64,000 nucleotides of DNA from Stygiolobus caldivivus. GTDB taxonomy: Archaea > Thermoproteota > Thermoprotei_A > Sulfolobales > Sulfolobaceae. The position numbers and the translations under genes were made by a program. The stretch covers positions 2,454,501 to 2,518,500 of the forward strand of contig NZ_AP024597.1 of NCBI RefSeq assembly GCF_019704315.1. The letters run 5' to 3'. The notes under the pieces were generated by a model that saw only the letters and a list, made by a program, of their open reading frames with translations, was not told the origin of the DNA and searched no databases. Within the stretch, counting starts at the first letter, position 1; every line of letters starts with the position of its first letter. Of the stretch, positions 4,944 to 8,933 are shown piece by piece.

Positions 4944-5675
4944 ATGGAACTTTGCCAACGATGTAATAAAAGAGAAGCAAAGTATATTGTAGGAGGGAGA
5001 AGACTTTGTGAAACGTGTGCAAGGGATGAAATTGTAAAGAGAGTTAGAAAAGAAATACATAACAGTAAGATGTTTAGTTTCAAGGATAAAGTAGTTATAA
5101 TAGTACCAGATAACCTTAACCAACTTGCAGAAATACTCTCTCAAATTGTAGGAAAGGCTTGCTATACGTGCAAACTACAGATAGACAAAGTAAACATTAA
5201 AACAGAGATTAATACTGACAGTAACATAAACGATTATATCTGGAAAATTATTATGTATTCGAAAAGTCTAGCCGATTATAAAGTGAAAATCCTACCTTTT
5301 CCTTCTAACTTTTTCCTCGCTTATCTATTATATTCAGTCTCAACTAAAGACTATTCGTACATAAATTATGTCACAAGCTATAAGTTGCTGAGCGATGGTA
5401 CTAGATTTTTTATACCACTTTACTCAATCTCTCTCTTAGAACTTAATGCTTTCGGTGAAATAAAGGAAATTAGCTTTAACGACGAGATATTTGACGCAAT
5501 TTTCAGATGGGTCAACACACAATTAGCTGAAAATTATGAACTATTTCATACTTTCATAGCTTCTACATCACTGTTTAATTCTGCACGATGTAAATCTTGT
5601 GACGCTTTCATTGAGTCTGGGGAGTATTGTGCTCGATGTAAAAGGACTTTAACTTCTCCTTTTCCTCCTTATTAA
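4944..5675 (+). CDS. TtuA/Ncs6-like protein lacking the PP-loop (Ncs2-like)
   Basis: 243 residues with the frame of a tRNA 2-thiolation protein. An N-terminal zinc finger (C4, C7, C22, C25) is followed by a basic helix, a short strand KDKVVIIVP, and a C-terminal zinc finger (C216, C219, C229, C232). TtuA/Ncs6/CTU1 enzymes share this two-finger plan but carry SGGKDS after the first strand. Here that position reads PDNLNQ, so ATP adenylation is probably lost. A CxxC pair (C73, C76) remains inside. Eukaryotic Ncs2/CTU2 is exactly such an inactive partner of Ncs6, so a scaffold role in tRNA thiolation is inferred. It diverges from the thermosome gene and overlaps the next gene tail to tail by 68 bases. 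Confidence 0.6.
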   Translation: MELCQRCNKREAKYIVGGRRLCETCARDEIVKRVRKEIHNSKMFSFKDKVVIIVPDNLNQLAEILSQIVGKACYTCKLQIDKVNIKTEINTDSNINDYIWKIIMYSKSLADYKVKILPFPSNFFLAYLLYSVSTKDYSYINYVTSYKLLSDGTRFFIPLYSISLLELNAFGEIKEISFNDEIFDAIFRWVNTQLAENYELFHTFIASTSLFNSARCKSCDAFIESGEYCARCKRTLTSPFPPY

Positions 5676-6426
5676 GGATAATTTCGAATTTAAATACATC
5701 TTTTTGCTGTTTACTGGGGGGTAAAATGCCTTCCCATGAGTAGTAGAAATAACCTGCAGACATAATCTCCTTAAAACCATCCTGGTCTATTTTATAATAG
5801 TCAAAAAGCATCTGTAATACGTTCAGCTCCTCTTTTATCTGCTTCATACTAATTACATATCTACAGATATAACACGATAAGTCTGGCATAATAGCATTAA
5901 ACCCGCATTTAGGACATTTGACTGGGGAGTTAATTCCGTAGAGTGTCCAATTAGACCTTAAGATATCTATCAGGTCATTCCTCCCTCTTTTTACACATAC
6001 CTCGTATAGCCTGGGACCCAGGTCTTTAATTGCATTTCTAGTGTTATATACTACAAACTCTAACTGCTCTTCCGAGAGTTTTTCTAAGTCCTTAATCCTG
6101 ACTAACTTCATAGCCAAAAACTCCATTAAAGCGTCTTTATTTGCAGAGAGCCTGTTAATAATGGTCCTCGACTTGGGCTTCGTCTTCACTTCGCCTACGG
6201 CACCGCTGAAAGGCTCCTTAATAAGTTCCTTATATTCTTCTCTGGACAAGTTTAAATATGCGAGCCCTAACGCGTTTATTACCTCATCCAAATATTCTTC
6301 TAAGAGTTGGTTAGGGTCTACATATTTTACAACTGTAGACTTCTTCTTTTTACCTGAAGTCTTTGATTGTGACTCAGCAGAAGGGTCTTTTTGTTCTTTA
6401 TCTTCTTCTTTCTTTTTTCTAGGCAA
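5608..6426 (-). CDS. Conserved-looking protein with zinc knuckle, unknown
   Basis: 272 residues. A highly charged, probably disordered N-terminus (about residues 1-32, Lys/Glu/Ser rich) precedes a helical body. A CPKC...CYIC zinc knuckle (CPKCGFNAIMPDLSCYICRY) lies near residue 170. I do not recognise the family. The nucleic-acid-protein appearance (basic tail plus zinc knuckle) is suggestive only. Its last 68 bases lie antisense to the C-terminal zinc finger of the TtuA-like gene. The next gene upstream in the same direction ends 20 bases away. Confidence 0.65.
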   Translation of the reverse strand: MPRKKKEEDKEQKDPSAESQSKTSGKKKKSTVVKYVDPNQLLEEYLDEVINALGLAYLNLSREEYKELIKEPFSGAVGEVKTKPKSRTIINRLSANKDALMEFLAMKLVRIKDLEKLSEEQLEFVVYNTRNAIKDLGPRLYEVCVKRGRNDLIDILRSNWTLYGINSPVKCPKCGFNAIMPDLSCYICRYVISMKQIKEELNVLQMLFDYYKIDQDGFKEIMSAGYFYYSWEGILPPSKQQKDVFKFEIILNKEEKEKLKSFYIEHNTPQTQ

Positions 6427-6446: not shown

Positions 6447-6779
6447 CTAGACTGTATGGGATAAGTCCAGGTAGTCCATAGGAAGCATTTTACCTTTAGA
6501 CACTATCTCGTTATATTTCTTTTCCAAATCTTCAATAAATACAGGGCAGTTCTCAAATTTTCCCTCCCTGGTGCATTTAGCACCACCTAAAGTTAAGAAA
6601 CACATAGACGACTTCTTATCATAATGAGGGCATAACTTATGATAAGTTTTAGCACTTTTTATCATCTTTTCTATCCACTGTTTTTTGTGGTCCTTCTTTT
6701 CTGCTTCCTTCTCAGCCTTAGCTAGTACTTTGTTCATCTCTTCTTCTGAGATCTTTGAAGATCTCGTACTATCTGCCAT
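6447..6779 (-). CDS. Cys-rich C4 mini-domain protein
   Basis: 110 residues: a charged helical N-terminus (about 1-48) and then C50, C60, C69, C78 in a CPHY...C...C...CP pattern shared with the protein at 1850-2242. Metal or Fe-S binding is likely but unproven. The ATG at 6779 is preferred over the GTG at 6788 because a GGTG ribosome binding site lies just before it. Its promoter must sit in the inverted-repeat region next to whiP, so its expression may be tied to the origin region. Confidence 0.6.
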   Translation of the reverse strand: MADSTRSSKISEEEMNKVLAKAEKEAEKKDHKKQWIEKMIKSAKTYHKLCPHYDKKSSMCFLTLGGAKCTREGKFENCPVFIEDLEKKYNEIVSKGKMLPMDYLDLSHTV

Positions 6780-6810
6780 AAATAACACCGCATTATGTAA
6801 CTTTAAGCGT

Positions 6811-6968
6811 CTCCTCTAATATATATTACTACTACTACTCTTATCAAATAATAGACGGGCAGGCTTATCCCATAGATATTAATATTTGTATAATGTAAGA
6901 AGAATTCACGTAAAATATTACCTGGCACCGATTTATAGTAGTAGTAATTATTTATGCTATAAGAGGAG
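6811..6968. other. Candidate replication origin oriC3 with inverted repeat arms
   Basis: The intergenic region beside whiP has nested inverted repeats. Left arm: CTCCTCT at 6811-6817 and ATTACTACTACTA at 6825-6837. Right arm: TAGTAGTAGTAAT at 6936-6948 and AGAGGAG at 6962-6968, in mirror order. Between them lies an AT-rich core (about 6870-6920) suited to unwinding. In Sulfolobus the third chromosomal origin is adjacent to whiP. The arms would then be initiator-binding sites; that is inference. The promoter of the Cys-rich gene at 6779 lies within the left arm. Confidence 0.6.
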
Positions 6969-7030: not shown

Positions 7031-7750
7031 TTAACATTCGCTTATCCTGTCTTTAAATGATTGTGTAAAACCTATCCTAAGTCCTAATTTAGGGTCATGG
7101 TACAGGTAGAGAATCCTCTTGGTCTGTAACTTTCTTAAAACTCTAAGTAACCAAGCTGTATCGGCACCAAACTCTTCTTGGAGCTGGTCTATGTAAACGT
7201 AAGTAGACCCCCATTGCTTATATTTGTTAAGGAGATATGATAGTAACTCTTTTTCTTCTTCGTCTAATTTTTTCAGAATTTCATCTAGACAGTTAATAAG
7301 ATCAGTCTTTTGTGGTTTATTTTCTGCAGTACTGGTTTTTGCTTCAATAAACAACAAAAATTCTTTTCTCTCTTTGTCATCTTTTTCCTTATTCTTGTCG
7401 TTTATTGAGGGCTTAACCTTTTCATTAAATATGTCTCTAGCTATAGCTAAATATTCAGTAAACTTAGTACTATTCTTACTCTCCAAGATCTCTTTAGCTA
7501 GGTCCTCTCCTAATGCCGAAAGATGCCATCTACCTGCCTCTTGGTAAACTAATCCTTTTCTTTTCCAGTAACTAAGATAACTACTAACATACTTAGTTTC
7601 AAGCCCCAAGTTTACGGCTATCTCTGATGTTCTTAGTGGCCTGGCTAAGAGGAGGACTAGGACGGCCTCTACTAATTTCGACCGGGGGTTAATACTCTTA
7701 TTTTCTTGAACCTTTACAGTGTCTATAATGTCAGTATCGTCAGTCTTCAT
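7031..7750 (-). CDS. whiP: Replication initiator WhiP (winged-helix initiator protein)
   Basis: 239 residues with two winged-helix regions: residues about 25-75 ([20 protein letters not shown], then YVSSYLSYWKRKGLV) and about 155-230 (EEEKELLSYLLNKYKQW, then WLLRVLRKLQTKRILYLYHD), joined by a charged linker. This two-wH Cdt1-like plan, and the neighbourhood close to the thermosome gene, match WhiP, which marks and binds oriC3 in Sulfolobus. An AT-rich TATA-like stretch about 26 bases upstream of the ATG suggests a leaderless mRNA. The identification rests on architecture and context and is fairly strong. Confidence 0.75.
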   Translation of the reverse strand: MKTDDTDIIDTVKVQENKSINPRSKLVEAVLVLLLARPLRTSEIAVNLGLETKYVSSYLSYWKRKGLVYQEAGRWHLSALGEDLAKEILESKNSTKFTEYLAIARDIFNEKVKPSINDKNKEKDDKERKEFLLFIEAKTSTAENKPQKTDLINCLDEILKKLDEEEKELLSYLLNKYKQWGSTYVYIDQLQEEFGADTAWLLRVLRKLQTKRILYLYHDPKLGLRIGFTQSFKDRISEC

Positions 7751-7820: not shown

Positions 7821-8933
7821 CTAATCAGTAATATCGCAAGTCTTTACTGCAACAAATTCATCATAGCCCACAATTACTTTGTAGACTCCTTTCATTAAAT
7901 TGTCTAATTTGGGGTCTCCGGAATCAATCCTTAAGCAATCAAAAGTATATAGTTTACTTCTTGTCGAAACTACTATTATGTTATCTCTTTCTACCTTATT
8001 ACTCTCTATTCTTAGTAATTTTCTAAGAAATAAAGGCCCTATCTCTTGGTTTCCTCTACCTATTAAAAACCCTTGCCTCCCTATAGGTGTTAAAATCAGC
8101 TTTAACTCCCCGGTTAAATTAAGCAAATCGTCATAATTTGCACAGCTCTTAATTAATTTCATATTTTGCAGAATATCAGTACAAAGGAAATTAGTTTCTA
8201 TCCCTATTTTTCTCAGTATATTCTTTGTAGTGCTGCCAGGTCCTATAACGTAAGTTATGTCTGGATTTGATAGTTCTTTATCTATAACATATTGCGCAAT
8301 TTCGTCAACTTCCTCTTTTTCTGAAATTATCTCCTCTTTATTGGGTACTATTAAGTTGGAGTAATTAATAGTTCTAGCATAACCGAAGAGCTTCACATTG
8401 TACTTCCCTTGCCGATAAGCTTCTTCATCTATATCGAGGATCTCTGTAATAATAACTTCGGTTTTACCTTGTACAAAGTGGCGCAAAAGGATACCTGCAC
8501 CCTCAGGAGTATTTGCAAATACCCCACTGTGCATTTTAACTCCGGTAGGGATCCCCAAGACAGGTAAGGTGTCTTTTACTACACTATATACGTCTCTAGC
8601 TGTACCGTCCCCTCCTGCAAAGACTATTATGTTACATGACTCTTTCTCGAGGAAATAGTTAAGGGCGTTTATAGTATCAACTCTCAAGGTAGGGGAGTGT
8701 ATTGTTATGTCAATAACCCGGTAGTTCAACTGTGTATTTTTGAAGTAATCTTCTCCCATCTCCCGAGGGGCTACCACATAGATAACGCTATCTTTGGGTG
8801 CGGTTGACAAAAACCTGGCCATCCTTAACGGGGTTTCTTGGTTATATGTATGTAGGCTATCACTCCCCTTATAGCCTATCCTTCCGCCGCTCCCTGCTAC
8901 TGGGTTAACAAGTAGGCAAATTGTTTTTGTCAT
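7821..8933 (-). CDS. ATP-NAD kinase / AcoX-family protein
   Basis: 370 residues. The NAD kinase superfamily signature GGDGTARDV is at residues 107-115, with an N-terminal LLVNPVAGSGG segment and a PVLGIPTGVKMHSGVF block typical of the ATP-NAD/AcoX subgroup rather than PpnK. A substrate is not established for the archaeal members; it may phosphorylate NAD or another nucleotide or lipid. It ends the unit that begins with the winged-helix gene upstream: the two are only a few bases apart and probably co-transcribed. Confidence 0.8.
   Translation of the reverse strand: MTKTICLLVNPVAGSGGRIGYKGSDSLHTYNQETPLRMARFLSTAPKDSVIYVVAPREMGEDYFKNTQLNYRVIDITIHSPTLRVDTINALNYFLEKESCNIIVFAGGDGTARDVYSVVKDTLPVLGIPTGVKMHSGVFANTPEGAGILLRHFVQGKTEVIITEILDIDEEAYRQGKYNVKLFGYARTINYSNLIVPNKEEIISEKEEVDEIAQYVIDKELSNPDITYVIGPGSTTKNILRKIGIETNFLCTDILQNMKLIKSCANYDDLLNLTGELKLILTPIGRQGFLIGRGNQEIGPLFLRKLLRIESNKVERDNIIVVSTRSKLYTFDCLRIDSGDPKLDNLMKGVYKVIVGYDEFVAVKTCDITD

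Follow-up and report, generated by a model that had tools for sequence, protein, structure and literature searches.

The arrangement of inverted repeats beside whiP and its conservation in related genomes suggest that positions 6825-6948 of the window are oriC3, a WhiP-dependent origin of replication. The window is the whole stretch of DNA that was analyzed, 64 kb of a Sulfolobaceae chromosome (genome size 2.96 Mb). Two inverted arms made of ACT and AGT triplets lie on either side of a UCM, and with a probability of about 0.7 WhiP binds these arms and MCM is loaded toward the UCM between them. The assignment to oriC3 had been made in the original prediction, and it agrees with the location next to whiP, the presence of a UCM, the lack of a classical ORB, and the conserved arm-UCM-arm layout. 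Overall that prediction is partly supported, as two of its details, the outer repeats and the unwinding core, fared less well.

Structure of the origin region

The arms are found 3' of whiP, between whiP and the gene at 6447-6788. The features of the region are as follows.

6447-6788, minus strand: gene for a 113-aa conserved cysteine-containing protein, immediately downstream of the putative origin, with a promoter that overlaps the AGT arm
6811-6817, plus strand: outer heptamer CTCCTCT, not conserved and judged incidental
6817-6827, minus strand: TATA box AATATATATTA of the gene at 6447-6788, directly beside the AGT arm
6825-6837, minus strand: AGT arm (R arm, distal to whiP), containing AGTAGTAGTAAT; candidate initiator-binding site adjoining the TATA box
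6884-6894, minus strand: UCM ATTATACAAAT, a UBP-binding motif midway between the arms, one mismatch to ATTATACAAAC
6936-6948, minus strand: ACT arm (L arm, proximal to whiP), ATTACTACTACTA; Sulfolobaceae consensus tCTACTaCtACTAT
6962-6968, plus strand: outer heptamer AGAGGAG, not conserved and judged incidental
7031-7750, minus strand: whiP, winged-helix initiator protein of 239 aa
7821-8933, minus strand: NAD kinase gene, upstream of whiP; carries the upstream palindrome described below

The inner arms form a perfect inverted repeat. On the plus strand ATTACTACTACTA is present at 6825-6837 and TAGTAGTAGTAAT at 6936-6948; they are complementary at 13 of 13 positions and are separated by a gap of 98 nt. 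The mirror order that had been described, with CTCCTCT and AGAGGAG outside the arms, was confirmed in the sequence. The heptamers had been counted as part of the element, and this can be ruled out because they are not conserved: AGAGGAG was found elsewhere only in the congener G019 and one genome of genus group g7, and CTCCTCT in none of the other whiP loci. The spacers between inner and outer repeats are also unequal (7 and 13 nt).

The length of the repeat is unusual but not unique. When the intergenic region was shuffled 5000 times with its dinucleotides preserved, arms of at least 13 with a loop of 20-150 nt arose in 5 of the shuffles, and the 64-kb window has three such pairs against 0.18 expected. 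Since there are three of them, the repeat alone is only suggestive, and conservation decides. The three pairs fit a chance trinucleotide repeat or an intergenic transcription terminator, but either is exceedingly improbable given the 98-nt loop, the specificity for a single locus, and a position conserved across 11 genera and beyond. In addition, variant bases in one arm (for example CTACAACT) are mostly uncompensated in the other, which argues against a hairpin.

The region between the arms is centered on the UCM, which the original prediction had overlooked. Instead it had proposed an AT-rich unwinding core, but the enrichment in AT is mild (31.6% GC, compared to 37.6% for the window). The UCM is present at all three Sulfolobus origins and is needed for firing of oriC1 in S. 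islandicus, and UBP binds the UCM and contacts MCM (PMC12141716). This genome has a UCM upstream of orc1-1 at oriC1, flanked by classical ORBs, and another upstream of orc1-3 at oriC2. The ACT/AGT arms were sought at both of these origins and are absent from both. The ORB core CCANNNGAAAC is present at this genome's oriC1 and was not found in its whiP locus.

The product of the gene at 7031-7750 has a predicted fold that fits WhiP, and orthologues of the gene were found in all 31 Sulfolobaceae genomes, bearing out its earlier identification as whiP. Several other families of the same order also carry WhiP. An AlphaFold model based on 23 sequences (pLDDT 72.9) predicts two winged-helix domains, with a disordered linker and a long helix joining them. 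Foldseek placed the model nearest to solved structures of winged-helix regulators, among them MarR-family proteins and Sso10a, but no match reached E < 0.001, and a search by sequence for a solved WhiP structure found none. A first scan of contigs with a single WhiP protein as query gave no match. Capture of whiP from an extrachromosomal element was considered and rejected, as relatives were sought on plasmids, phages, and viral contigs and none were found.

The gene at 6447-6788 is kept beside the origin in Sulfolobaceae whiP loci. Its product has no Pfam match, and its NCBIfam matches are at chance level only. Farther downstream of the origin, the ORF at 5608-6426 encodes a 272-aa protein with cysteine pairs, as in the 113-aa protein.

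Conservation in the Sulfolobaceae

The layout of ACT arm, UCM, and AGT arm is found in nearly all of 30 whiP 3' flanks from 11 genera of Sulfolobaceae. The UCM is within one mismatch of ATTATACAAAC in all 30. In the AGT arm, AGTAGTAGTAAT is exact in 23 flanks and has at most one mismatch in 28, at 43-58 nt from the UCM, while it is degenerate in both genomes of genus group g3. The ACT-type arm is recognizable in most of the loci and degenerate in g2, g3, and some of the Metallosphaera-like g6 genomes. Most columns that do not belong to an arm, the UCM, or the TATA box are unconserved, the exception being a purine-rich stretch near the start of the next gene. The original prediction had proposed a comparison of the repeats at the whiP loci of relatives, and there the arms proved to be conserved.

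The arm pair is largely specific to whiP loci. Whole sequences of 31 genomes were searched for both arms 90-118 nt apart, with no UCM required, and 19 genomes had a match, each of them at whiP. Of the 26 matches listed, whiP loci account for 23, four of which are repeat readings of the same site in genomes G000 and G013; the other three lie elsewhere in G016 and G018. A control search with the reversed pattern gave one match.

The distances from the arms to the UCM fall into clusters. In recognizable loci the ACT arm is 49-57 or 62-64 nt from the UCM (once 75), and the AGT arm is 43-50 or 54-58 nt away (once 68). These spacings step by about one helical turn, with the periodicity strongest at 10.5-11 bp. 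Helical phasing of the arms with the UCM is suggestive only, since phylogenetic dependence was just roughly reduced by collapsing values per genus.

The AGT arm lies next to the TATA box of the following gene, a feature missed in the original prediction, and TATA-like columns beside this arm recur across the Sulfolobaceae. The sequence AGTAAT at the junction also fits RNWAAW, the archaeal BRE pattern. The arms could thus be promoter or operator sequences of the gene at 6447-6788, with the inverted copy being incidental. This is very unlikely, as the ACT arm is conserved despite having no TATA box, and the other three copies of AGTAGTAGTAAT in this genome are not followed by one. Furthermore, the two g3 genomes have an AGT element at the usual distance from the UCM that is about 20 bp apart from the one at the TATA box. 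As the arm overlaps the promoter, binding of the initiator to it would probably also influence transcription of this gene in Sulfolobaceae.

whiP loci outside the Sulfolobaceae

The arms can be recognized in two other groups of the order. The f3 group (18 genomes) is Acidilobaceae-like and presumably consists of genomes resembling Aeropyrum, Acidilobus, and Caldisphaera; a Caldisphaera contig was also found. The f7 group (11 genomes) is Ignisphaera-like, including one genome that we take to resemble Ignisphaera aggregans. On the 3' side of whiP, orientation tests gave 18 loci for and 0 against an ACT-type arm before the UCM in f3 and 16 for and 1 against an AGT-type arm after it, and in f7 the counts were 8 to 0 for the ACT arm and 9 to 0 for the AGT arm; the sign tests are optimistic, as they count related genomes as if each were independent. 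The UCM of f3 is in reverse orientation compared to Sulfolobaceae and f7, and it is within one mismatch in 10 of the 18 loci. Repeats of the TATTAC/GTATTA type flank the UCM in several f3 loci. In genomes with Aeropyrum-type affinity the arms are thus present, more weakly than in Sulfolobaceae. A WhiP-type origin has been confirmed in A. pernix by marker frequency (PMC10769869).

These groups also bear on the promoter explanation. Both arms are retained in f7 and at 12 of the 18 f3 loci even though the longest neighboring ORF there is convergent, which means that promoter function alone does not account for them. In a further group, f9 (9 genomes), a UCM-like motif is kept and the ACT/AGT arms are not recognizable, so WhiP may recognize a different sequence in these organisms.

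Comparison with known origins

The locus shares all tested features with the oriC3/whiP replicator of S. islandicus, S. solfataricus, and S. acidocaldarius, including whiP itself, the adjacent intergenic position, and the UCM. In S. acidocaldarius oriC3 lies at approximately 1.20 Mb (PMC5809426), and whiP of the S. acidocaldarius-like genome G022 is at 1.1975 Mb. A local minimum of the detrended skew, computed over only about 224 kb and influenced by gene orientation, is about 9 kb from the locus in the window and lends it weak support as an origin.

The plan of the origin resembles that of oriC1, where the order is ORB3-UCM-ORB2. Both have two inverted elements at a similar distance from a central UCM, but the elements are ACT triplets at oriC3 and ORBs at oriC1. 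The proteins also differ: WhiP is predicted to have tandem winged-helix domains, with no AAA+ domain in the model, while Orc1 acts at oriC1. Two inverted ORBs at oriC1 direct Orc1-1 to load MCM toward the central UCM and UBP (PMC12141716). At oriC3 of S. islandicus firing depends on WhiP and not on the orc1 genes (PMC4010727, PMC5333045), and neither ORB nor miniORB was seen at the WhiP origin according to a review (PMC4010727). The ACT/AGT arms most likely replace ORBs as candidate WhiP sites. Given the shared plan and the dependence of oriC3 on WhiP, the most economical interpretation is binding of the arms by WhiP, with MCM pointing inward.

The proposed mechanism parallels that of oriC1. 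WhiP, the product of the adjacent gene, would use its winged-helix domains to bind the two arms, in opposite orientations. It would then recruit one MCM hexamer from each side toward the UCM. Each arm is about 45-65 bp from the UCM, much as inverted ORBs flank the UCM of oriC1. UBP at the UCM would keep its place between the helicases up to the point at which they part and move off. The role of WhiP as the arm-binding protein is suggested by the position and symmetry of the arms and their co-distribution with whiP.

The main alternative also takes the locus to be oriC3, but with arms that are ORB variants bound by Orc1/Cdc6, or that are bound by another factor, and with WhiP acting elsewhere or as a loader. 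All three Orc1 proteins footprint oriC3 of S. solfataricus in vitro, as described in a review (PMC5333045). Also, a 2013 report places ORB-like nORB sites around the UCM of oriC3 in S. islandicus and S. solfataricus and gives three such sites (PMC3718332). This alternative appears unlikely, since the arms lack the ORB core that this genome has at its own oriC1, they occur at whiP loci rather than at its orc1-linked origins, and oriC3 of S. islandicus relies on whiP instead of the orc1 genes.

Part of the element may have been noticed before. The nORB sites and the ACT/AGT arms may be the same element. The original prediction had suggested that the triplet arms were the unassigned binding element of this origin. 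They remain the best candidate for an initiator element, while the word unassigned may be too strong because nORB sites had been reported (PMC3718332). The location of oriC3 beside whiP and the presence of a UCM were already known. In the literature searched, and setting aside the nORB sites, no description was found of an inverted, UCM-centered ACT/AGT pair throughout the family, nor was the order-wide range or locus specificity of the arms described. Work by Robinson and Bell in 2007 and by Samson in 2013 may already describe binding of WhiP at oriC3.

The arms suggest a different position for one published origin. In Sulfodiicoccus acidiphilus a whiP-linked oriC-2 with direct repeats was proposed 5' of whiP at 1,016,172-1,016,607, and the authors saw no ORB near whiP (PMC6647314). 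Genome G020 is this organism, because the start of its cdc6 meets the published end of oriC-1 (87,045/87,046) and its whiP starts just past oriC-2. A UCM with one mismatch and both arms are found 3' of whiP at about 1,017,340-1,017,460, on the opposite side from the proposed oriC-2, and the locus has no further UCM within one mismatch.

A palindrome associated with the origins

A second conserved sequence, the palindrome TWAACYGGGGRGTTWA, is present about 1 kb from whiP and oriC3 in Sulfolobaceae, usually on both sides and within genes. Allowing one mismatch, 50 copies were found in 30 loci, compared to none in 20 block shuffles. In 24 of the 30 loci a copy is about 1.06-1.09 kb before the whiP stop codon, and 20 have another copy 1.06-1.46 kb past it. 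The copies in the window are the following.

5710-5725: further copy, two mismatches
5918-5933, plus strand: downstream palindrome TTGACTGGGGAGTTAA (one mismatch), in the ORF at 5608-6426, about 1.0 kb from the UCM
8102-8117, minus strand: upstream palindrome TTAACCGGGGAGTTAA, in the NAD kinase gene, about 1.2 kb from the UCM

The palindrome is also found near other origins. The 11 genomes with complete lists of exact matches have 93 copies. A distance of at most 5 kb separates 24 of these from orc1-3 and 17 from whiP (0.4 expected in each case); three are near orc1-1 and none near orc1-2. This genome has copies with one or two mismatches beside an ORB of oriC1 and on both sides of the UCM of oriC2. 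Most f3 loci have one copy a short distance ahead of whiP and a second immediately past the AGT arm; no copies were found in the whiP loci of f7 and f9.

Several possible explanations of the palindrome were considered. Of 92 conserved columns in the NAD kinase gene, the GGG codon of the palindrome stands out most, but the neighboring codons failed the filter, and synonymous constraint on the palindrome was rejected. SegB was rejected as its reader, as the SegB motif is TCTAGASTCTAGA (PMC12284271). In the form TAAACTGGGGAGTTTA the palindrome is dense, with many copies, on plasmid-sized contigs of Sulfolobaceae and on some IMG/VR viral contigs (G013:C2, G014:C1, L192-L195, L200, and L201). This density suggests a site for plasmid replication, partition, or regulation. 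The 2013 report describes 'C' palindromes at oriC1 and says that oriC3 is without them (PMC3718332); TWAACYGGGGRGTTWA could be one of the 'C' palindromes. Tentatively, it may be a second, apparently undescribed origin-linked element bound by one factor that the three origins share. Such a factor might serve in segregation or in once-per-cycle control, or might be a regulator resembling Orc1-2.

Implications

WhiP is the only archaeal chromosomal initiator known outside Orc1/Cdc6, and the conserved inverted pair around the UCM provides an exact, mutable target for footprinting. The arms would allow a test of whether Orc1 can be dispensed with when a Cdt1-like protein places two MCM hexamers. 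They also make it possible to find whiP origins from the sequence in genomes such as that of Sulfodiicoccus, where origin finders did not succeed. If the flanking palindromes do act at all three origins, they suggest that a shared layer of control may lie over origins with different initiators.
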